A DNA stretch of 64,000 bases from positions 147,501 to 211,500 of the forward strand of contig NZ_CP076443.1 of the NCBI RefSeq assembly GCF_018866345.1, written 5' to 3'. The notes beneath the pieces were generated by a model. That model had not been told where the DNA came from, searched no databases, and saw nothing but the letters and a program-made list of their open reading frames with translations. The stretch's first letter is position 1, and each line of letters opens with the position of its first letter. This DNA is from Gemella sp. zg-570. Lineage in GTDB: Bacteria; Bacillota; Bacilli; Staphylococcales; Gemellaceae. The translations under genes were made by a program, and so were the position numbers. Below, piece after piece: positions 3,530-28,046 of the stretch.

Positions 3530-4666
3530 TTGGATAAGACATACAAAATGATTGATTTATTTGCAGGGATTGGAGGCATTAGAAAAGGTTATGAAAATAC
3601 TGGTAGATTTCAAAATGTTTTATCAGCTGAAATAGATAAATATGCCTGTGAATCTTATAAATTCTTATATGGAGATGACCCTTATAATGATGTAAGATCA
3701 GAAGAATTTAAAGAGTTAGTTAAAAGTACAGAATATGATGTTCTTCTAGGTGGTTTTCCTTGTCAAGCATTCTCGATAGCGGGCCTAAAAGAGGGATTTG
3801 AAGATGAAACAAGAGGCACATTATTTTTTGATATAGCAAAAATAATAAACATGTCTAAACCTAAGGCATTTATGCTAGAGAATGTTGAAGGACTTTTAAA
3901 GCACGACAAAGGAAATACATTTAATGTAATTGCAAGAACATTAGATGAACTTGGTTATGTTCTAGTAGGTGTTGATATAGAAGAAACACTCGTTGGTAAA
4001 AAATATTCTGCAAAAAGAGAAAATATTGTAAGAACTCCATATGATTTTGGTATTCCACAAAGGAGGGCAAGAGTTTTTATTATGGGTTTTAGAAAAGATA
4101 TTGTTCCCAAAGGATATATATTTCCTATGCTACCAAGGGGTAGAGAGTTAAATATTTATAAAGACTTAAACGATTTGATAGAAGAAGTAGTAGAACCTAA
4201 ATACTATTTATCTCAAATATATTTAGATACACTTAACAGACATAAAGATAGACATAAATCAAATAAAGCAGGTTTTGGTTATATTGTTGTAAATGATGAA
4301 CCTAATCCAATAGCAAATACTATAATGGCTACTGGCGGTTCTGGTAAAGAGAGAAATTTAATAAGACAGTATAAAGAAGATTATATTGGATTAAAGAATA
4401 TAGGGGCAAAAAAAGGAAAACTTAATTCAGAGGGTATTAGGTATATGACCCCTAAAGAATGGGGAAAATTACAAGGTTTTGTAAATTATGCTTTTATGGA
4501 AAATGGTATTGATAAATTTGAATTTCCTAAGAGTATAAGTAACAGCCAACAGTATAAGTTATTTGGGAATTCTGTATGTATTCCAGTTATAGAAAGTATG
4601 GCAGAATATATGATAGAGAGATTGGATGAATTTTATGGCAAAGGAGAAAAAGGTGGCTTTCAATAA
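3530..4666 (+). CDS. DNA (cytosine-5-)-methyltransferase
   Basis: 378 residues, normal length for the family. It starts at TTG behind a strong AAGAGGAGGG site. C5-MTase motifs are in order: motif I DLFAGIGGIRKG (residues 9-20), motif IV GGFPCQAFS with catalytic Cys78, motif VI ENVEG (117), motif VIII QRRAR (177), and motif X GNSVCIP (about 354). It transfers methyl from SAM to C5 of cytosine in a specific DNA site. The downstream gene is a broken HpaII-like nuclease overlapping by design of an operon, so CCGG-type specificity is possible but unproven. With nuclease and regulator both dead, this is now an orphan methyltransferase. Confidence 0.95.
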   Translation: MDKTYKMIDLFAGIGGIRKGYENTGRFQNVLSAEIDKYACESYKFLYGDDPYNDVRSEEFKELVKSTEYDVLLGGFPCQAFSIAGLKEGFEDETRGTLFFDIAKIINMSKPKAFMLENVEGLLKHDKGNTFNVIARTLDELGYVLVGVDIEETLVGKKYSAKRENIVRTPYDFGIPQRRARVFIMGFRKDIVPKGYIFPMLPRGRELNIYKDLNDLIEEVVEPKYYLSQIYLDTLNRHKDRHKSNKAGFGYIVVNDEPNPIANTIMATGGSGKERNLIRQYKEDYIGLKNIGAKKGKLNSEGIRYMTPKEWGKLQGFVNYAFMENGIDKFEFPKSISNSQQYKLFGNSVCIPVIESMAEYMIERLDEFYGKGEKGGFQ

Positions 4667-5110
4667 AGGGGAATGGTCTGAATTATATTCAATTTTTTAC
4701 TTATTAGCTAATAGAAAATTAAACTTAGTTGATTGTAAATTAAACCTTATTACTAATAATATTTTTTCTGTTGAAAGTATTATTTCAAAGAAAAAAAGTG
4801 GAGTAATAAAATTTAAGATTCAAAATGATATGGTAATTCCAGATATATTTGGAGAAAAAATTGAAGCAATTAAAATTGAGGAAATAATTAAATTCAAAAA
4901 TCAAGTGTTTTACAATATTATTTCTGGAAGAGCTGGTTCAGGATCATTTGAAATAGACTATGTTAATCAATGGTTAGAAAAACATAATATTTTTACTAAT
5001 TTTAAAGCAAAATCTGGAGTTAAAGAAGATATATTTTTGAAGAATTAGAAAATATAAATACTAATATTGCTAGCATACACCCTATGAAAGAACTAGTTGC
5101 TAGTGGTTAA
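4653..5110 (+). pseudogene. Truncated HpaII-like restriction endonuclease
   Basis: Best start is GTG at 4653 (MAFNKGEWSELY), six bases after AAGGAG inside the end of the methyltransferase gene; an ATG at 4626 is in frame. The open frame stops at 5048. The N-terminal KGEWSELY and the later SGSFEI...FKAKSGVKEDI segment match the pattern of HpaII-family restriction enzymes as I know it (about 350 residues), so only the first third remains. After the stop, another frame reads FEELENINTNIASIHPMKEL to a stop at 5110, a further relic. The catalytic domain is incomplete, so cleavage is not expected. Family call is moderate; truncation is clear. Confidence 0.65.
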
Positions 5111-8058: not shown

Positions 8059-8927
8059 ATGGCAAAAATAAAATCAATAGAACCCAACATAGCAGACCTA
8101 GTAAACGGCTGGCTAAAAAACTACAAGCTAGACTACAAACTCGAACAAGAAAGCCTAAATGCAGAAATAGACAAGGCACTAGACGAATACAAATCAAAAA
8201 ATGGAGGAAGTGGAGGCAACAGACCTGATGCCAAACTCCTACTACAAGACAAAAACCTAAACTACTACCCCGTCCTAATAGAATACAAAGGCTACAAAGA
8301 CAAACTCATAAAACTAGACGAAAACGGAAATGTAGACAACAGAAACAGCAAAAACTCCCCCAACTACAAAAACATAAACGACTATGCAGTAAACGGAGCA
8401 GTCCACTACGCCAATGCAATCCTACACTACACAAGCTACACCCAAGTAATAGCTATAGGAGTAACAGGCTATAAAAACGACAAAGAAGAAATCAAACACA
8501 CAATAGGAGTCTACTACGTATCAAAAGAAAACTTTGGAATAGGTCAAGAAATCGGAAAATACACAGACCTATCATTTTTAAGAAAAGAAAACTTTGACGA
8601 CTTCATAAAAAAAAAAGTGAACTATCCCTAACAACAGAAGAACTAGAAGCCCTAAAAGACAAAAGAGAAAAAGAAATCAATGCCAGTCTAGTAAAACTAA
8701 ACAACGACATATACGCAAGCGAAAAAGGACTTAGCGAAAACGACAGAGTATACCTAGTATCAGCGAGTATAATGGCAAACCTAGGAATACCTGGAGAAGT
8801 AAGCCCACTAGAAAAATCAGACCTAAAATCATCACAAGAAGAAGGCAACACAGACGGAGAAATCATAATAAGAAAAATAAAATCCTTCCTAAAAAGAAAA
8901 ACCTACCCTATACAAAACAAAAATTAA
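8059..8927 (+). pseudogene. N-terminal (nuclease) part of a frameshifted fused restriction-modification protein
   Basis: The first open stretch (8059-8631, 190 residues) carries a PD-(D/E)XK-type nuclease core: NRPDAKLLLQD followed by PVLIEYKGYK, i.e. D...ExK. It ends by frameshift in an A10 tract (8607-8616). One base later the frame resumes (SELSLTTEELEALKDKREKE ... EKSDLKSSQEEGNTDG) to a stop at 8925-8927, where a second slip in an A-rich run (8891-8900) passes the reading to the methyltransferase part. Restoring one A in each run would give a single polypeptide of about 680 residues, nuclease fused to adenine methyltransferase, like BcgI-type/type IIG systems. Dead, phase-variable, or a sequencing artefact in homopolymers. 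Confidence 0.75.
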
Positions 8928-10099
8928 TAGTAAGAAGTTTAGAAAACACCCTACTTTCAGACAACATAAACAAGGCAGTAAACGGAGAAAGCCAACTAAA
9001 AAGAATATTTGCAAAAATAATAGACGACTTAGGCATCTACTACAAAATAGGACTAACAACAGACTTCACAGGAAAACTATTTAATGAAATGTACTCTTGG
9101 TTAGGATTTACCCAAGACAAACTAAACGATGTAGTCCTAACACCCTCTTATGTAGCAAACCTACTCGTAAAACTAGCCAGAGTAGATAAAGACAGCTACG
9201 TTTGGGACTTTGCGACAGGTTCAGCCGGACTACTAGTAGCCGCAATGAACGAAATGATAATAGACGCCAAAGAAAAAATAAAATCACCAGCCGAACTAGA
9301 ACAAAAAATACTCCAAATAAAAGCCGAACAACTACTAGGACTAGAAGTCCTATCAAACATCTACATGCTAGCCATACTAAACATGATACTAATGGGAGAT
9401 GGTAGCTCAAACATACTAAACAAAGACTCACTAACAGACTTTGACGGCAAATACGGCTTTGGCAAAACAGAAGAAACCTTCCCAGCCACAGCCTTTATCC
9501 TAAACCCACCCTACTCAGCCCAAGGCAACGGCATGGTCTTTGTAGAAAAAGCCTTGTCAATGATGAACAAAGGCTATGCGGCAATCATCATACAAAACTC
9601 AGCAGGAAGTGGCAAGGCAAAAGAAATAAACCAAAAAATACTAGAAAAAAACACCCTACTAGCCAGCATAAAAATGCCAATAGACCTATTTGTCGGCAAA
9701 TCAAGCGTCCAAACCAACATATACGTCTTTAGAGTAGGAGAAAGACACCAAAAAGATGAAATAGTAAAATTCATAGACTTTTCAAATGACGGCTACACAA
9801 GAAGCAACAGAAAAAAAGCAAGCAACAACCTAAGAGATACCGACAGAGCAAAAGAAAGATACGAAGAAATAACAAACCTAGTCCGCTTTGGCAAAAGCAA
9901 ACTAAATATCTTTACAGAAAAAGAATACTATGAAGGACATATCGACCCAAACAATGGAGCAGACTGGAACCAGTCAGCCCCAATAGACACAAGACCAAAA
10001 CTAGAAGACTTTAAAAAAACCGTGGCAGATTATTTGGCTTGGGAAGTAGCAAACCTTATAAAAAATACAGACCAGGAGGAAGCAAAATCAAAAAAATAA
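8892..10099 (+). pseudogene. N6-adenine DNA methyltransferase part of the same fused restriction-modification gene
   Basis: Continues the gene in a third frame; first usable ATG is internal at 9089 (336 residues from there). Motif I is DFATGSAGLL, motif IV NPPY (in LNPPYSAQGNG), as in HsdM/N6-adenine enzymes; the C-terminal half has the conserved FIDFSNDGYTRSNRKKA block. It would methylate adenine using the specificity subunit encoded next (61-bp overlap). A protein started at 9089 might still fold, but it would lack the helical linker joining nuclease and methyltransferase. The A/C-rich base and codon use (CTA, ATA, AAC) differs strongly from neighbouring genes, a sign of transfer. Confidence 0.75.
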
Positions 10100-11280
10100 A
10101 AGCCTCACTGGATAAAAAACTAAAAAATATTCAGTGGGGCGAGTATAGGATTGGGGATTTGTTTGAGGTTAAATCATCGAAAAAAATTTTTCACGCTAAC
10201 AATATAGAGATTATGGAAGAAAAAATATTAGATAGTTATCCTTATGTTGTTAGAAAAACTGGAGAAAATGGAATTAGAGGGTATATTAAACAAAGTGAAG
10301 AATTTTTAAATCCTAAAAATACATTATCTTTTGCACAAGACACATTCACGGTTTTTTACCAAAAGGAAAAATATTTTACAGGAAATAATGTTAAAATACT
10401 TGTGCCTAAATTTTCTGAATTTAATGAAAGTATTGGAATATTCTTTGTAGGAATATTTAAACATTTATTAAGTAATTTTAGCTGGGGGACAGGCTCTACT
10501 AAAGAATGGATAAATTCATTTATTCTAAAACTCCCAATCAAAAATGGAGAAATTGATTTTGAATTTATGGACGCTTATATAAGCGAGCTAGAAGAGGAGC
10601 GTATAAGCGAGCTAGAAGAGGAGCGTATAAGCGAGCTAGCCGCTTACTTGACAGTAAGCGGCTTGGATAACTATAAGTTATCCACTCTTGAGCGTGAGGC
10701 ACTAGACCTTGTCTTAGCAGATAAACTTACTTGGGCGGAGTTTAGGATTGGAGATTTGTTTGAGAAAATCAAAACAAAAAATTTAAAAATGAAAGTAGGA
10801 GATTTATCTCCTAGAAAGACAGAAAAATTCAATCTTCCAGTTTTAACCGCAGGAATTGAAAATCAAGGACTTAATAACTACGCTCCTAAAGCAAATGCAA
10901 CTATATTAAAAAATGTAATTTCAATATCTGCTAATGGAGCAAATACTGGTGCAACATTTTATCAAAGTAAAGAATTTACAGTGTTACAAGATGCTTATGC
11001 AATATCTTGCAAGTTAGATTTTTCACTTAATGACAATCATAATTTGTTTTTAACAGGTGCAATTAGGAAATCTATATATGGTAATTTTGCTTGGACAGAT
11101 AAAGCAGGTTGGGAAAAAGTAAAAAAAGAATTTATCCAACTCCCAACCAAAAACGGTGAAATTGATTTTGAATTTATAAATACCCTAATATCAGCCGTAC
11201 AGAAGTTAGTTATTAAAGACGTGGTACTTTACGCTGATAAAAAAATTCAAGCAACTAAAGAAGTTGTGAAGAGGAAGTAA
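10039..11280 (+). CDS. Restriction-modification specificity (S) subunit, two target-recognition domains
   Basis: 413 residues in two homologous halves. Each begins with the same helix (WGEYRIGDLFE at about 35, WAEFRIGDLFE at about 235) and ends with LPxKNGEIDFEF (about 167 and about 370), the classic HsdS/BcgI-B architecture with two TRDs separated by conserved helices. It gives sequence specificity to the adjoining nuclease-methyltransferase. The central helix carries the tandem ISELEEER repeat. The start at 10039 overlaps the methyltransferase end; an internal start near 10108 cannot be excluded. Base use changes sharply near 10130, from A/C-rich to ordinary AT-rich, so this gene or its TRDs were probably exchanged independently. 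Confidence 0.88.
   Translation: MGSSKPYKKYRPGGSKIKKIKASLDKKLKNIQWGEYRIGDLFEVKSSKKIFHANNIEIMEEKILDSYPYVVRKTGENGIRGYIKQSEEFLNPKNTLSFAQDTFTVFYQKEKYFTGNNVKILVPKFSEFNESIGIFFVGIFKHLLSNFSWGTGSTKEWINSFILKLPIKNGEIDFEFMDAYISELEEERISELEEERISELAAYLTVSGLDNYKLSTLEREALDLVLADKLTWAEFRIGDLFEKIKTKNLKMKVGDLSPRKTEKFNLPVLTAGIENQGLNNYAPKANATILKNVISISANGANTGATFYQSKEFTVLQDAYAISCKLDFSLNDNHNLFLTGAIRKSIYGNFAWTDKAGWEKVKKEFIQLPTKNGEIDFEFINTLISAVQKLVIKDVVLYADKKIQATKEVVKRK
10579..10640 (+). repeat. In-frame 24-bp tandem repeat in the S-subunit gene (2.6 copies)
   Basis: Units at 10579-10602 and 10603-10626 are identical and a partial third runs to about 10640. Each encodes ISELEEER (8 residues, two helical turns) between the two recognition domains. 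In type I S subunits (EcoR124I/EcoDXXI TAEL repeats) such copy number sets the distance between half-sites. Confidence 0.92.
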
Positions 11281-20584: not shown

Positions 20585-21418
20585 ATGAAAAATGATAATG
20601 TTATTTATCCACAACCTTTTGTAAAGTGGGTTGGTGGGAAAAGACAGGTAATAGATAAAATAAAAAATAAAATACCTTCAAATTTTAATGATTACTACGA
20701 GCCTTTTGTTGGAGGCGGAGCGGTATTATTTAATATTAATTCTGAAAATATTTTTATTAATGATATTAATGAACAATTAATAAATGTTTATCATCAAATA
20801 AAAAATAATTACAAAGAACTTGCATACCAAATAGATTGTTTAAACAGTGAAGAGGTTAATTCCATTAGGTATGAAAAATTAAGAGAATTATACAATGACA
20901 AGATAATAAATAAAGAGCTAGACTTAGAGTGTGCAGCTTTATTTATGATTATAAATAAATATTGCTTTAACGGTGTATATAGAGTCAACAAAAAAGGGCT
21001 TTACAATGTTCCTTGGAATAAAAAAACTAAGGTTAAAATTTATGAGTTAGATAATTTAAAGGCTATTTCTAAAAAGTTACAAAATGCCACTATAAAATCT
21101 GGTGATTTTTTAAATCTTCTAAAGACTGTAAAAAAAGGTGATTTTGTATTTTTTGATAGTCCTTATGCACCTTTAAATGAAACTACGTTTAATTCATATA
21201 CACAAACAGGTTTTACAAAATATGACCATAAAAGATTAGCTCAAGAATTTAAACGATTAGATGGTAAAGGGGTATATCTTATGCTAACTAATCATAATAC
21301 AAAATTAATTAGAGAGCTATATAAAGAGTATCATATTGAACTTCTTGATGTTAAAAGGGCAGTCAATAGCGATGCATCAAATAGAGTAGGCAAAGAAATT
21401 ATAATAACAAATTATTAA
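20585..21418 (+). CDS. dpnM: DpnM-like N6-adenine DNA methyltransferase (GATC)
   Basis: 277 residues, alpha-class Dam/DpnM type: N-terminal PQPFVKWVGGKRQV, motif I FVGGGA (41-46), target recognition region in the middle, motif IV at 191-194. Motif IV is DSPY rather than the almost invariant DPPY; the codons read GAT AGT CCT TAT. Methylates A in GATC, protecting DNA from the nuclease encoded 10 bp downstream. Whether the Ser keeps full activity is an open point. ATG follows TAGGAG. Confidence 0.9.
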   Translation: MKNDNVIYPQPFVKWVGGKRQVIDKIKNKIPSNFNDYYEPFVGGGAVLFNINSENIFINDINEQLINVYHQIKNNYKELAYQIDCLNSEEVNSIRYEKLRELYNDKIINKELDLECAALFMIINKYCFNGVYRVNKKGLYNVPWNKKTKVKIYELDNLKAISKKLQNATIKSGDFLNLLKTVKKGDFVFFDSPYAPLNETTFNSYTQTGFTKYDHKRLAQEFKRLDGKGVYLMLTNHNTKLIRELYKEYHIELLDVKRAVNSDASNRVGKEIIITNY

Positions 21419-21427
21419 GGAGTAAAT

Positions 21428-22288
21428 ATGGATAGAAATTTTGATATATGGTTATCTAAAATGGTTAATTCTATAGCTAGTTGGTCTTGGTATACAGATT
21501 TTGAAAAAGTGTATAAAAATATAGATAGCATAAAAATAGAGTTAAATTTGTTAAACACGCTAATTAATAGCAAGAATATAGAAGTAGAATTTAAAAATTT
21601 AGTAGAAAAATATCCTAATATTTTAAATGCAATACCAATATTAATAGCTAAAAGAGAAAACAAGATAATAATTAAAGACAATAAATGTGATTATGAATTT
21701 AATTTTAAGAAACAGAATTATGATATTAAAGATTATATTTTGTTTATGAGAAAAACAGGAATTTTTAACCTTTTAGAAAATCATATAATTTCCAATTTAT
21801 ATGATTATGTTACAGGAATAGAAGTAGGATTAGATTCTAATGCTAGGAAAAATAGAACAGGACATTTAATGGAAGATTTAGTTGAATCGTATCTGCTAAG
21901 TTCTGGTTTAGTTAAAAATGTAAATTATTTTAAAGAACTAAATAAAAGTAAGATAGAAGAATATTGGGGAATAGATTTATCAAAGCTAGGAAATAGTGGT
22001 AAAACAGAAAAGCGTTTTGACTTTGTAATAAAAACCAATAATAAAATTTATGCCATAGAAACAAATTTTTACTCCAGAGGTGATTCTAAATTGAATGAAA
22101 TTGCAAGAAGTTATAAAAATTTATTTGAAGTATGTAATAAAATAGAAAATTTTGAATTTATTTGGATTACTGACGGTCAGGGTTGGAACAAGGCTAAGAA
22201 GAATTTAGAAGAAACTTTTAATATAACTAGAAATATTTATAATATAAATGATTTGGAGAATAATATAATATTAAAATTAATTAATTAA
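21428..22288 (+). CDS. dpnB: DpnII-like type II restriction endonuclease (GATC)
   Basis: 286 residues, matching R.DpnII in length (288) and style. N-terminal WLSKMVNSIASWSWYTDFEKVY, then NRTGHLMEDLVESYL, and the catalytic region KRFDFVIKTNNKIYAIETNFY (Asp ... Glu-Thr-Asn in place of ExK), then WITDGQGWNKA. It should cut unmethylated GATC. The pair lacks dpnA, the single-strand-DNA methyltransferase found in the pneumococcal DpnII locus. Very AT-rich codon use like neighbours. ATG follows AAGGAG. Confidence 0.92.
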   Translation: MDRNFDIWLSKMVNSIASWSWYTDFEKVYKNIDSIKIELNLLNTLINSKNIEVEFKNLVEKYPNILNAIPILIAKRENKIIIKDNKCDYEFNFKKQNYDIKDYILFMRKTGIFNLLENHIISNLYDYVTGIEVGLDSNARKNRTGHLMEDLVESYLLSSGLVKNVNYFKELNKSKIEEYWGIDLSKLGNSGKTEKRFDFVIKTNNKIYAIETNFYSRGDSKLNEIARSYKNLFEVCNKIENFEFIWITDGQGWNKAKKNLEETFNITRNIYNINDLENNIILKLIN

Positions 22289-22488: not shown

Positions 22489-23589
22489 ATGAAAATAGCA
22501 GTCGTTGGTGCTGGCATAGTTGGAGCTACTTGTGCCTATTACTTGTCAAAAGAAGATGTCGAACTAAAGGTTTTTGATTACGGCTTGGGGCAAGCAACAA
22601 AGGCGTCAGCAGGAATTATCAGCCCCTGGTTTTCTAAACGTCGTAACAAGGCCTGGTACAAGATGGCAAGAATGGGGGCTGAATTTTATTTAAAATTGGT
22701 AAAAGATTTAAAAAATGACGGTTACAGCACAGATTTTTACAAGCAAACTGGAGTTTATATCCTAAAAAAAGATGAAAGTAAATTACAATACCTATTAAGT
22801 CTTGCAGAAAGTAGAAGAGAAGTTTCTGCTATGATAGGGGATTTAAAAATAGTTTCTAAGGAGGATATCAAAAAAAATATTCCAGATTTTACAGGTGCTA
22901 ATTACGCCCTTTATGCAAGTGGTGGGGGGAGAATAGAGGGAGAACTTTTTGTAAAAACACTACTCGAAGCTGCCAAGGTTGAAGTAATAAATAAAAAAGT
23001 TACACTAGAAATTCAGCAAGACAAATATATTGTTGATAATGAAGAATTTGACAAGGTAATTTTATGTACAGGGGCATGGCTTAAAGAAATACTTGAACCC
23101 CTTAATTTTGAAGTAGACGTTCGCCCACAAAAAGGACAACTTCGAGATTATCAAATTTCAGATTCTAAGAGTGGCACTTATCCCGTAATTATGCCAGAAG
23201 GTGAGTTAGATATAATCCCTTTTGAAAATGGTTTTCTCAGTATGGGAGCAAGTCACGAAAATAATATGGGCTTTGATTTAAGTGTTGACAAAGATTTATT
23301 AAATAAATTTGAAGAAGAGGCGACTAATTTTTTACCTACATTAAAAAAAGCAAGGGTAATAAATGAGCGTGTAGGAATTAGGGCATATACAAATGATTTT
23401 TCTGTCTTTTACGGTCTAGTTCCAGGCGAAAAAAATCTTTTTGTAGCAAGTGGTCTAGGCTCTTCTGGTCTAACTACTGGAGGTATAATTGCTTATAATC
23501 TTGCCATGCTTGCAGTAGGTAAAGAGGAGTTGCTAGACAGTTCGGATTATCCCACAAGTAGATATATTAGAAAAATAAAAAAATTCTGA
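22489..23589 (+). CDS. FAD-dependent oxidoreductase, D-amino-acid oxidase (DAO) family
   Basis: 366 residues. N-terminal dinucleotide-binding motif VVGAGIVGATCAYYLSK (GxGxxG), the DAO block TKASAGIISPWFSKRR, VRPQKGQLRDYQI, and the C-terminal FAD closing motif FVASGLGSSGLTTG. Family members oxidise amine groups of amino acids (DadA, ThiO, SoxB-like). The true substrate cannot be read from sequence; a ThiO role is possible in principle, but the adjacent thiamine genes are all salvage type (thiM, thiD, thiE) with no thiS, thiG or thiF here, so I do not assign it. ATG follows AAAGAGGTG. Confidence 0.85.
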   Translation: MKIAVVGAGIVGATCAYYLSKEDVELKVFDYGLGQATKASAGIISPWFSKRRNKAWYKMARMGAEFYLKLVKDLKNDGYSTDFYKQTGVYILKKDESKLQYLLSLAESRREVSAMIGDLKIVSKEDIKKNIPDFTGANYALYASGGGRIEGELFVKTLLEAAKVEVINKKVTLEIQQDKYIVDNEEFDKVILCTGAWLKEILEPLNFEVDVRPQKGQLRDYQISDSKSGTYPVIMPEGELDIIPFENGFLSMGASHENNMGFDLSVDKDLLNKFEEEATNFLPTLKKARVINERVGIRAYTNDFSVFYGLVPGEKNLFVASGLGSSGLTTGGIIAYNLAMLAVGKEELLDSSDYPTSRYIRKIKKF

Positions 23590-24458
23590 AGCTAAGTTGA
23601 GATTTTTTCTAACTTTCTATGTTTCAATCACACCCATAAAATCCATAATTATTTACAATCTCCCATCTCCCAATAAAAAATATATAAGCATCATTTAAAA
23701 CCTAACAAGACTTGGAAATATTTATTTTAAAACTTCTAGGCAACTTGGGCTACCATGATATGCCAGTTAGTTCTTTAAATTTTTATCAATTTAACATGAC
23801 TTGTATAAGCCAATGTTCCTAATTTTCCAATATATAAGAGGACTAGTATTTAATAAATAATTCTATATAACTAAAGCCATTGAAATTATAAATAATAAAT
23901 ATGGTAATAATCTATGATAACACCATTATTGTCGCTTTAATTAAGTGTATATGATAACTAAAATTTTGCAATTCGTCTTTAATAATAATGTTTAATCTTG
24001 CTAGGTTTAATATGGTAGAAAGTACTTAATCAGATGTTTTCATAAGGGATAAAAATATATAATATATAATTCATCTTTTCTCACTACTAAAATATAGTAC
24101 AATTAGCATCTAAATCACAAGTTTCTAATCCTATTTTTATTATATTCAATAAAAACAGATAATTTCTTACTAGAAATTATGGCTACTTCTCCTAATCTTA
24201 TATTTCTATATAGCAGTAGACTTGAAAATTTTATTTTTAAAATCTAGGATGAAATCATTTTTTAATATATGCCTTTTTTCGATTTCACCAATTCCAAGGA
24301 AATAAAACATAATATTCTTATATTTTACAAGAATATTTATAGCAAAAACAAGAATATTATAAATGATTATTTCAGGTATAGTTAATATTTATTTTCTAAA
24401 TTGTTTGTTTTATTTCCAGTGAAAATTAAATACAAATAATAATATATAACTCTTTTTA
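23590..24458. other. Long spacer with decayed remnants upstream of the thiamine locus
   Basis: About 870 bp with no intact frame. On the minus strand around 24110-24205 a short reading RLGEVAIISSKKLSVFIEYN ends in a stop; its DNA shares 21 bp exactly with 3084-3104. An 11-bp perfect inverted repeat (GGAAATAAAAC at 24298-24308, its complement at 24407-24417) encloses AAGAATATT dyads and could be a small nonautonomous element or simple AT-rich coincidence. Confidence 0.35.
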
Positions 24459-24487
24459 TTGAAAAAATAAAATTTTTATGCTAATAT
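24459..24487 (+). promoter_or_regulatory. Promoter for the riboswitch-thiDME transcript
   Basis: TTGAAA at 24459-24464, 17-bp spacer, TAATAT at 24482-24487, about 20 bp before the first TPP aptamer. Confidence 0.6.
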
Positions 24488-24508
24488 GAAATAAGAAATA
24501 AATTAATC

Positions 24509-24633
24509 TTATAAAAGGGGGCTGATAAATCGGCTGAGATAAGAATGTGATTCTTGACCTTCGACCTGATCTGGGTAATGCCAGCGTAGGAATTTAATTG
24601 ACGCCGCATATATCCGCAGATATATGCTTTTTT
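24509..24633 (+). promoter_or_regulatory. TPP (thi-box) riboswitch 1 with intrinsic terminator
   Basis: Contains the conserved CTGAGA of the pyrimidine-sensing arm, GACC, and the 3' core ACCTGATCTGGGTAATGCC followed by AGCGTAGGAA. Terminator GCATATATC-CGCA-GATATATGC then T6 at 24606-24633. With TPP bound, transcription should stop here. Confidence 0.96.
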
Positions 24634-24673
24634 AGTGGATTTACTTAAAAATTGTTAAAAATAATAAATTATC

Positions 24674-24798
24674 TTATAAAAGGGGGCTGATAAATCGGCT
24701 GAGATAAGAATGTGATTCTTGACCTTCGACCTGATCTGGGTAATGCCAGCGTAGGAATTTAATTGACGCCGCATATATCCATAGATATATGCTTTTTT
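24674..24798 (+). promoter_or_regulatory. TPP riboswitch 2 with intrinsic terminator
   Basis: Same aptamer as copy 1; terminator 24771-24798 has loop CATA. A transcript escaping the first gate meets this one 165 bp later. Confidence 0.96.
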
Positions 24799-24838
24799 AG
24801 TGGATTTACTTAAAAATTGTTAAAAATAATAAATTATC

Positions 24839-24963
24839 TTATAAAAGGGGGCTGATAAATCGGCTGAGATAAGAATGTGATTCTTGACCTTCGACCTGAT
24901 CTGGGTAATGCCAGCGTAGGAATTTAATTGACGCCGCATATATCCGTAGATATATGCTTTTTT
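24839..24963 (+). promoter_or_regulatory. TPP riboswitch 3 with intrinsic terminator
   Basis: Same aptamer; terminator 24936-24963 has loop CGTA. It is the last gate, followed by a 123-bp AT-rich leader to thiD. Confidence 0.96.
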
Positions 24964-25086
24964 AGTGGATTTACTTAAAAATTATTAAAAATAATAAAAT
25001 TATATTATTAAATATTGAGCTAGCATCTAACTTTTTTGAAAATAGATTAATATATTTAATTAAACATTATATATGGAGGGTAAATA

Positions 25087-25920
25087 ATGAAAAAAGTATT
25101 AACAATAGCCGGTTCTGATTCAAGTGGAGGAGCTGGGATTCAAACCGATCTAAAAACATTTGCAGCACATGGAGTTTATGGTATGAGTGTTATAACATCA
25201 ATAACAGCACAAAATACAATGGGGGTTAATTATATAGAAGATATTTCTTCAAAAGGAGTTACGTGTCAGCTAGAAGCTATTTTTACAGATATTGAAGTTG
25301 ATTCTATAAAAATAGGAATGCTGTCAAATTCAAATATAGTAGAGTCGGTTTATGACGGTTTAAAAAAATATAAAACTAATAATATAGTTTTAGACCCTGT
25401 TATGATTTCCACTTCAGGCTTTGATTTAATAGATGATGCGGCAAAAAATAAATTAATAAATACACTTTTTTCTATTGCTGATATAATTACTCCCAATATA
25501 ATGGAAGCCAAGTGTATATATAAATTATTATTTAACATAGAAGTAAATATAACTAGGGTAGAAGAAATGGTAAAAGTTGGTAAAGAAATACAAACAGTAA
25601 CAGGAAAGTATGTACTCATTAAGGGAGGGCATCTTGATGAAAATCCATGTGATGTTTTAATAGATATTAATAATAAAGAACACTACTTTACTAATAATAG
25701 AATAAAGACTAAAAATACACATGGAACAGGCTGTACATTATCTTCAGCAATTGCTGCAAATTTAGCTTTAGGCTTTGAAATGATTGATGCTGTAAAAAAA
25801 TCCAAAAAATTTATAACTATGGCTATTGAAAATTCTTTAAATATAGGTAGTGGATGTGGACCTACAAATCCTATGGGACAAATATATAAAGATTTAAACC
25901 TAAAATATAAAGGAGATTAA
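25087..25920 (+). CDS. thiD: Hydroxymethylpyrimidine/phosphomethylpyrimidine kinase
   Basis: 277 residues, ribokinase fold. N-terminal substrate loop IAGSDSSGGAGIQTDLKTF (6-24), KIGML, the DPVMIST block, and the C-terminal anion hole THGTGCTLSSAIAANL. Phosphorylates HMP to HMP-P and HMP-PP, the pyrimidine half of thiamine. First gene behind the triple TPP riboswitch; it ends 4 bp before the next gene, so both share one transcript. Confidence 0.97.
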   Translation: MKKVLTIAGSDSSGGAGIQTDLKTFAAHGVYGMSVITSITAQNTMGVNYIEDISSKGVTCQLEAIFTDIEVDSIKIGMLSNSNIVESVYDGLKKYKTNNIVLDPVMISTSGFDLIDDAAKNKLINTLFSIADIITPNIMEAKCIYKLLFNIEVNITRVEEMVKVGKEIQTVTGKYVLIKGGHLDENPCDVLIDINNKEHYFTNNRIKTKNTHGTGCTLSSAIAANLALGFEMIDAVKKSKKFITMAIENSLNIGSGCGPTNPMGQIYKDLNLKYKGD

Positions 25921-25924
25921 AAAC

Positions 25925-27361
25925 ATGAATAAAAATATAATTATAGAAGAAATTTGTAAAGCAATTAAAAAGGTTAGGGAAACAAAACCTTTAATAGAAC
26001 AAGTTACAAATTATGTTACAATAAATGATTGTGCAAATGTTACACTAGCTATTGGGGCATCACCAGTAATGGGAGATGCGTATGATGAAGTAGATCAAAT
26101 GACGAAAATAGCCAATGCACTGGTACTTAACTTTGGAATAATTAGTTCTGAATCATTAAAAACAATGATAAAAGCAGGAAAGACTGCAAATGAGAATAAT
26201 ATACCCATAGTTTTTGACCCAGTAGGCATAGGTGCAACTCCTTTTAGAAATGAAACGGTTATAGAGTTTTTAAATCAAGTGCACGTTAGTATTATTAAAG
26301 GTAACGCTTCTGAGATAATGGCATTGGCAGGAGTTAATGTAAAAACCAAAGGAGTAGATTCAAGTGTAGAAAGTACTGAAGCAATAGACGCAGCTATTTT
26401 TATAGCTAGAAAGTATAGATGTGTATGTACTGTTACTGGAAAAGTTGACATTATAACAGATGGAATAAATATTATAAAAATACAAAATGAATCAGATTCT
26501 TTAGCCTACATTACAGGAACTGGCTGTATGATTGCTTCATTGATAGGAAGTTATGTTGGAGCTAATAAAAATCCATTAATTAGTTCAGTTGCAGGTGTCT
26601 TGACTATGAGTCTATCTGGTGAAATAGCAAATAATGAAACTAAGGGTATTGCCGCTTATAAAGAAGAGGTGATGAATAATATTTTCAACTTCAATCCAGA
26701 GATGGTAATAAAAAACGCTAAAATATCTTATGAAAAAGTGAAATATCAATATGATATGTATGTAATTACAGATGAAAAAGCATGCTTGGGTAAAGATCTT
26801 TATACATCTATAGAGGAATGCATAAAAGGTGGAGCTAAGATTATTCAACTTAGAGAAAAAAAATTAGCTACTAGAGATTTTTTAAATAGAGCCATAAAGA
26901 TAAAAGAAATTTGTGCAAAATACAATGTTCCATTATTAATAAATGATAGATTGGACATAGCTATTGCTGTAGATGCGGATGGTGTACATGTAGGACAATC
27001 TGACATGCCAATAAAAAAAGTGAAGGAATTAATGGGACATAATAAAATAGTAGGAGTTTCTGTAAAAACTGTATCACAGGCACTTGAAGCTCAAAAAGAG
27101 GGAGCTGATTATATAGGAGTCGGTGCTATATTTGCTACAAATACTAAACCTGATGCTCATGTAATATCTAAAGAGACTATTATGGATATTAAAAATAATG
27201 TATATATTCCAATTTTAGCAATTGGAGGTATTAAGTTAGAAAATTTAGATGTTATTAAAGATATAGGGGTGGATGGAATCTGTGTAATATCAGATATATT
27301 AAATCAAGAAGATTGTAAAAAAAGAACAGAAGAATTAGTAGAAAAATTTTCAAACCTATAA
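25925..27361 (+). CDS. thiM/thiE: ThiM-ThiE fusion: hydroxyethylthiazole kinase and thiamine-phosphate synthase
   Basis: 478 residues, two complete domains. Residues about 1-265 are ThiM: LIEQVTNYVTINDCANVTLAIGASPVM, FDPVGIGATPFR, and TGTGCMIASL. Residues about 273-478 are ThiE: YDMYVITDE, GGAKIIQLREK, LLINDRLDIAIAVDADGVHVGQSD, GVSVKT, GVGAIFATNTK and ILAIGGI. The product phosphorylates the thiazole alcohol and joins it to HMP-PP to form thiamine phosphate. With ThiD this makes a compact salvage route for both halves of thiamine; no thiC, thiG or thiS is present here. Separate genes are the rule in Bacillota. Confidence 0.95.
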   Translation: MNKNIIIEEICKAIKKVRETKPLIEQVTNYVTINDCANVTLAIGASPVMGDAYDEVDQMTKIANALVLNFGIISSESLKTMIKAGKTANENNIPIVFDPVGIGATPFRNETVIEFLNQVHVSIIKGNASEIMALAGVNVKTKGVDSSVESTEAIDAAIFIARKYRCVCTVTGKVDIITDGINIIKIQNESDSLAYITGTGCMIASLIGSYVGANKNPLISSVAGVLTMSLSGEIANNETKGIAAYKEEVMNNIFNFNPEMVIKNAKISYEKVKYQYDMYVITDEKACLGKDLYTSIEECIKGGAKIIQLREKKLATRDFLNRAIKIKEICAKYNVPLLINDRLDIAIAVDADGVHVGQSDMPIKKVKELMGHNKIVGVSVKTVSQALEAQKEGADYIGVGAIFATNTKPDAHVISKETIMDIKNNVYIPILAIGGIKLENLDVIKDIGVDGICVISDILNQEDCKKRTEELVEKFSNL

Positions 27362-27659: not shown

Positions 27660-28046
27660 TTAGATATGGAGATCTAGCTCTCTTTTTATTGCATTATTAA
27701 TTTTAAAACAATTCACAGCATCTATAGCTTTTTCACTAGCTGGATAAAGGCTTTTATTTTCTTGTTTTAAAGGCAGGTTATGATTTTTAAAAAATTCATG
27801 GAGCTTATATTTATGATAGGCACTGCGTAAAAATCTACCGTTATGTATGGCTAGTTCTAACTGATTTTGTGTGTCGCTAGATAAAAGATTACATCAAGCA
27901 TTGGCAGTCATCAATAATTTTGTGCCAACTCTTTTTCTTTCTTCTAGTAGAAAAATTTTAAGTTTATGATTATTTAATCTATCTGCTATCATAAGAGGGC
28001 TAATCCCAGCTCCAATAATAATTAAGTCATATTTAAAATCTTTCAT
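27660..28046 (-). pseudogene. Remnant of an HI0933/BaiN-family flavoprotein
   Basis: The minus strand reads MKDFKYDLIIIGAGISPLMI, then FLLEERKRVGTKLLMTANA, an in-frame TGA, then CNLLSSDTQNQLELAIHNGRF and LRSAYHKYKLHEFFKNHNLPL. This fits the N-terminal FAD-binding part of HI0933-like proteins, where the block is normally GNGRCNLTN: TGA sits where the conserved Arg is expected, consistent with one C-to-T change (CGA to TGA). The frame is otherwise intact for 129 codons but ends far short of the roughly 400-residue family length, so the C-terminus is also lost. Ribosome site AGGAGG is still present upstream. Confidence 0.8.

Follow-up and report, generated by a model that had tools for sequence, protein, structure and literature searches.

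The thiamin-salvage operon thiD, thiM-thiE of Gemella sp. zg-570 is, in all likelihood, governed by three near-identical TPP-OFF transcription attenuators arranged in series. The initial annotation had placed three complete riboswitches one after the other before thiD and thiM/thiE, and this arrangement was recovered here and is consistent with serial gates. Judged from sequence, the array has the layout of a pseudo-cooperative tandem, with at least two complete riboswitches of the same class in one leader and ahead of one operon. It lies within the window, by which we mean the whole 64,000-nucleotide stretch of DNA that was analysed. The three aptamers and the two genes behind them are as follows:

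24506-24609, + strand, TPP aptamer 1 (RF00059, 62.8 bits)
24671-24774, + strand, TPP aptamer 2 (RF00059, 62.8 bits)
24836-24939, + strand, TPP aptamer 3 (RF00059, 62.8 bits)
25087-25920, + strand, thiD, HMP/HMP-P kinase (TIGR00097, 316.8 bits, cut-off 204.95)
25925-27361, + strand, thiM-thiE fusion, hydroxyethylthiazole kinase and thiamin-phosphate synthase (TIGR00694, 268.4 bits, cut-off 256.4; TIGR00693, 225.4 bits, cut-off 145.1)

A search for ThiC gave no match, with the control matching in 13 of 14 genomes, so the thi genes probably serve salvage. The genome has one more TPP riboswitch (L004, 1132-1603, - strand), which precedes genes for a Thiamine_BP-domain protein, an ABC permease and an NMT1/THI5-like binding protein, a gene set that looks like thiamin-precursor uptake. 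As for the fused thiM-thiE gene, many of the full-length matches listed in other genomes hold one stop between the two parts and a few hold none.

Three identical aptamers in a 165-bp tandem repeat

All three RF00059 matches are full length (model positions 1-105) and exceed the cut-off of 54.3 bits, as the initial annotation had predicted for an Rfam TPP covariance search; the aptamers that it had described as complete and alike in appearance turn out to be letter-identical in all copies. The conserved TPP core is present, and is the same in each copy (CUGAGA; ACCUGAUC.GG.UAAU.CC.GCGUAGG.A, for copy 1 aligned to the Rfam consensus). By match, core and thi-gene context the three elements belong to the TPP riboswitch class, and they would be expected to bind TPP.

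The aptamers are part of a longer repeat. Positions 24501-24998 of the window consist of a 165-bp unit present three times head-to-tail (spacing 165 and 165), with copies 2 and 3 each 98% identical to copy 1. TRF likewise reports a period of 165, 3.1 copies and 97% matches, and the exact 165-bp periodicity claimed earlier is thus found by both approaches. The units, delimited by the repeat search and copy alignment, are:

24501-24665, + strand, repeat unit 1 (165 bp)
24666-24830, + strand, repeat unit 2
24831-24998, + strand, repeat unit 3 (repeat end about 24998)

The copy alignment has zero differences among the three copies over 24506-24615. Differences occur in the terminator loop at 24616-24617 (GC, AT and GT in copies 1, 2 and 3) and in the spacer at 24654 (G, G and A), and copy 1 alone departs at 24503 and 24505, on the left margin of the array. 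An assembly artefact as the source of the array is judged unlikely: the copies can be told apart by sequence, which argues against an assembly duplicate, and the genome is a single contig of 1,558,665 bases. Recent amplification, which the initial annotation had read from the near-identity, is plausible, but gene conversion between the copies would give the same picture, and the near-identity appears to fit both equally.

Each unit pairs a terminator with a predicted, mutually exclusive antiterminator

Terminator scanning and folding identified one intrinsic terminator per unit, and transcript folding, duplex energies with controls and forced folds delineated the competing antiterminators:

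24606-24633, + strand, intrinsic terminator 1 (hairpin 24606-24627, 9-bp stem, loop CGCA, U6)
24771-24798, + strand, intrinsic terminator 2 (hairpin 24771-24792, 9-bp stem, loop CATA, U6)
24936-24963, + strand, intrinsic terminator 3 (hairpin 24936-24957, 9-bp stem, loop CGTA, U6)
24573-24615, + strand, antiterminator 1 (24573-24587 paired with 24601-24615)
antiterminator 1 coordinates +165 and +330, + strand, antiterminators 2 and 3 (same folding)

Each hairpin is followed by TTTTTT, and these T6 runs end at 24633, 24798 and 24963, where transcription stops had been proposed; scan and alignment also confirm that every aptamer has a terminator of its own, with the three loop sequences given in the initial annotation. 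Across 23600-25150 we found three terminator-like sites, compared with 0.4 +/- 0.6 in shuffles.

In each unit, the antiterminator pairing is incompatible with aptamer helix P4/P5 as well as with the terminator. When the growing transcript ends at 24620, 24785 or 24950, the antiterminator is the predicted lowest-energy fold in all copies, beating the fold with P4/P5 and a free arm by 4.4, 3.7 and 3.0 kcal/mol in copies 1-3, and these folds point to antitermination as the ligand-free default. An advantage of 3.0-4.4 kcal/mol is plausibly reversible by ligand binding. With the hairpin completed, the terminator fold beats the antiterminator (-31.3 vs -25.8 in copy 1, -31.5 vs -25.0 in copies 2 and 3); since the terminator fold wins at equilibrium, ligand-free readthrough would have to be kinetic, and kinetic control of readthrough is usual in terminator-type riboswitches.

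The core-to-arm duplex has an energy of -12.7 kcal/mol, which is equalled by 58 of 9041 16-mers sampled every 7 bases over the window with the array excluded (0.6%), and by 128 out of 5000 shuffled arms (2.6%). These controls lend the predicted antiterminator modest backing that is good, not overwhelming, as such pairing is not rare by chance. Despite the substitutions at 24616-24617 in the loop, two outer antiterminator pairs stay standard (GC or GU; UG or UA). On these folding predictions the expression platform is one of transcription attenuation, with a terminator and a mutually exclusive antiterminator.

Three probable gates in series before one operon

The serial reading combines what we computed (aptamers, terminators, exclusive pairings, copy identity and genes) with what we infer (that TPP binds, that the terminators act, that there is one start site and that the gates are independent). 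In the proposed mechanism, RNA polymerase would begin ahead of copy 1. As long as TPP is absent, the 3' half of the aptamer core, GGGUAAUGCCAGCGU, would pair with the 5' arm of the terminator, ACGCCGCAUAUAUCC, and this pairing would block the terminator and allow polymerase to continue. With TPP, the core would be retained by the aptamer and the arm freed, and the hairpin followed by U6 would halt transcription. Reaching thiD would require three escapes, with deeper repression, onset at lower TPP and a moderate gain in steepness as the expected consequences.

We put numbers on these expectations with a model of ideal independent gates, in which expression equals (1+x)^-n. The half-repression point moves to 0.41 Kd for two gates and 0.26 Kd for three, and the 10-90% span, 81-fold with one gate, narrows to 40-fold with a second and to 32-fold with a third, where the effective Hill number is about 1.26. 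There is also a cost, as a readthrough of 0.9 per gate becomes 0.73 through three, giving less full-on expression. In the model, the main benefits of a triple gate would be reduced leak and a lower threshold, with a moderate gain in steepness. The initial annotation had expected the leak of one gate to be cubed and repression to become very steep; the former stands for ideal independent gates, but the latter is overstated given the modelled spans.

A single transcript crossing all three units is most likely, and the promoter candidates that bear on it are:

24459-24487, + strand, nearest upstream candidate promoter (TTGAAA-17-TAATAT, TG before the -10; promoter scan, weak)
24598-24626, 24652-24680, 24763-24791, 24817-24845 and 24928-24956, promoter-like sites in the array (looser scan)

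The upstream candidate is the only case with a TG before the -10 among the listed + strand promoter-like sites ahead of the array, and further + strand candidates lie farther upstream; the scan as a whole was no richer than shuffles (13 sites on both strands vs 13.8 expected). The five sites within the array come from a looser scan for -35 elements starting with TTG, run without a shuffle control. If used, such internal sites would bypass some or all of the gates and weaken the serial reading, with 24928-24956 lying late enough to bypass all three.

Distribution among relatives and origin of the operon

TPP matches occur in 5 of 6 genomes of the genus and in 14 of 15 genomes of the family (all 29 matches covered). 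Adjacent TPP matches are confined to the present genome, with none in the 14 other family genomes, and the array thus appears lineage-specific within the genomes sampled. Among 20 chosen homologous thi loci (6-9 kb each), 16 have a TPP match and none has two on one strand. One homologous thi locus (L093, 3444-3844) holds two divergent TPP riboswitches, one per strand, separated by about 175 bp. To look for other triplets we searched 398 genomes of the class for three exact GCGTAGG at a period of 147-177, a pattern that would miss many triplets; it matched in 7 genomes, and a reversed control pattern matched in 18. The loci examined from the six other pattern-matching genomes (L104-L109, one per genome) were rejected as TPP triplets, none having an Rfam TPP match and L104 being a T-box; additional pattern matches in three of those six genomes (L111-L113) lay outside this Rfam check.

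Within the genus, a ThiD match is found in the present genome only and is absent from the 5 other genomes, two of which are 66% and 72% complete. Scanning genome contigs with the ThiM-ThiE protein gave 4 loci at 39-50% identity, none of them a close relative. In a ThiM tree of 55 rows, made up of the best-scoring relatives, a branch with support 100/97 unites 19 rows of the order with 4 of a sister genus, and the window ThiM falls outside that branch, among rows from beyond the order, with its exact place loose (87/84) and subject to a long-branch warning. Another row of the order, L098, sits at the root of the tree on a very long branch. In a DNA search for a donor of the repeat unit, the best foreign match listed covered 82 of the 165 positions at 82%; no whole-unit donor is present among the foreign matches listed, none of which extends past unit position 102, a point still within the aptamer model.

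A gene remnant marks where the thi segment ends downstream:

27690-28034, - strand, truncated flavoprotein-gene remnant (covers residues 2-116 out of 384, with one internal stop)

This remnant has no other match in the genome, and a longer open flavoprotein gene lies before adhE in the genus member G002 (L132, 15652-16806). Similarity to three genus members starts at one place, 27692-27693. From these data we infer that the thi operon arrived by transfer or rearrangement, with loss of part of a resident gene.

Alternative explanations for the array

The array could also be a recent neutral tandem duplication, with a single gate responsible for almost all of the regulation and the remaining units carried along until they are lost. 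The copy identity of 98%, which extends to the spacer, and the lack of tandem TPP matches in the 14 other family genomes and the 20 chosen homologous thi loci would both fit such an event. We nevertheless consider it improbable, given that aptamer, antiterminator and terminator are intact in all three units and that identical copies should all act if any one does. The changes, moreover, avoid those parts: the three variable positions within the unit all fall in the loop or spacer, which make up 36 of 165 positions, with a chance of about 0.01 that rises to 0.05 if the adjacent loop changes count as one event. This estimate drops the left-edge positions 24503 and 24505, which correspond to spacer in copies 2 and 3 and leave the direction unchanged. 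The placement of these few changes is no more than suggestive of selection keeping all three units.

A further possibility, compatible with serial gates, is that the number of units shifts within the population via recombination between the 165-bp repeats, giving tunable, contingency-like thi control. The array contains perfect direct repeats over 100 bp, and repeats of this length are good recombination substrates; we hold this reading to be unlikely, if conceivable. The same low expectation attaches to its extension to a copy-number rheostat in an acquired operon, where units would expand and contract to yield heritable, quantized differences in thi repression between strains. Folding across units, with chimeric aptamers or terminators making the array one cooperative structure, is highly improbable. 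The lowest-energy full-length fold does have long-range pairs between units, and terminators 1 and 3 pair arm to arm at a mean probability of about 0.15 when the full-length RNA is folded at equilibrium, but within-copy terminator pairing dominates (0.84, 0.99 and 0.84), P4/P5 and antiterminator pairing between copies is 0.000, and a growing transcript would let each copy decide before the next is made. Three attenuators acting in series remain the preferred reading.

Relation to known tandem riboswitches

Welz and Breaker reportedly described, in 2007, tandem TPP riboswitches of Bacillus anthracis that act as serial TPP-dependent terminators. By that account, the system has the serial logic proposed here but two units instead of three.

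The initial annotation held that known tandems mostly combine two different or cooperative aptamers, and this is not supported by the same-class counts in the passages of PMC9481103 cited here: 213 TPP representatives in same-class tandem, including a single triplet, and 347 doublets plus 12 triplets of c-di-GMP-I, besides other classes. The tandem TPP elements described in those passages are, like ours, complete riboswitches with expression platforms in series; the present locus differs in having three units and letter-identical aptamers. The single TPP triplet counted there could be this locus or another. In the cited table of PMC12452182, TPP TPP TPP precedes thiE, thiD, thiM and thiC in Bacillota, with rows of 2, 3, 4 and 8%, an arrangement like the triple TPP before thiD/thiM/thiE found here. 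By the figure quoted from PMC2258182, several aptamers occur in <1% of those leaders that contain a TPP or AdoCbl riboswitch.

The triple-tandem c-di-GMP-I array Bc3-5 of Bacillus thuringiensis, as presented in the cited part of PMC4759541, likewise has three complete same-ligand riboswitches in series, but it responds to c-di-GMP and is an ON switch, c-di-GMP turning expression on. In measurements there, Bc3-5 surpassed both Bc4-5 and Bc5 alone in stringency, with beta-galactosidase rising 1.2-, 1.8- and 3.4-fold for Bc5, Bc4-5 and Bc3-5; background was lowest in the triple, and the maximum started falling with more units. The double Bc3-4 (7-fold) was no better than the single Bc4 (11-fold). 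As far as the cited parts of PMC9481103 and PMC4759541 go, the leak and threshold effects predicted by our model agree with them in direction.

Our literature search found no paper with both Gemella and a TPP riboswitch. Same-ligand tandem and triple switches are already published in the sources cited, and the present array is a new example or possibly the one already counted; going by sequence, its distinguishing mark would be perfect aptamer identity. The literature cited holds few natural riboswitches with three units for one ligand, and identical aptamers would make this one a clean test bed: with copies so nearly equal, comparing single, double and triple versions would show what copy number alone does to leak, threshold and steepness. 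An array specific to one lineage, on an operon that appears to have been acquired, would also let one ask whether riboswitch amplification tightens regulation after transfer.

Other features of the window

Upstream of the array, 20585-22288 encodes a DpnII-type restriction-modification pair (a Dam-family methylase and a DpnII endonuclease), and an FAD oxidoreductase ORF (22489-23589) sits between this pair and the array. An exact 24-bp repeat of 2.6 copies (10578-10639) lies inside a specificity-subunit ORF (10039-11280); in type I systems, repeats of this sort could alter spacing and specificity. At 8059-10099, two ORFs match parts 1-201 and 380-717 of a 721-long type IIG restriction-methyltransferase profile, and the gene looks split or decayed. 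Finally, a 140-aa ORF at 4626-5048, which follows a cytosine methylase, matches only the first third of the HpaII restriction endonuclease.
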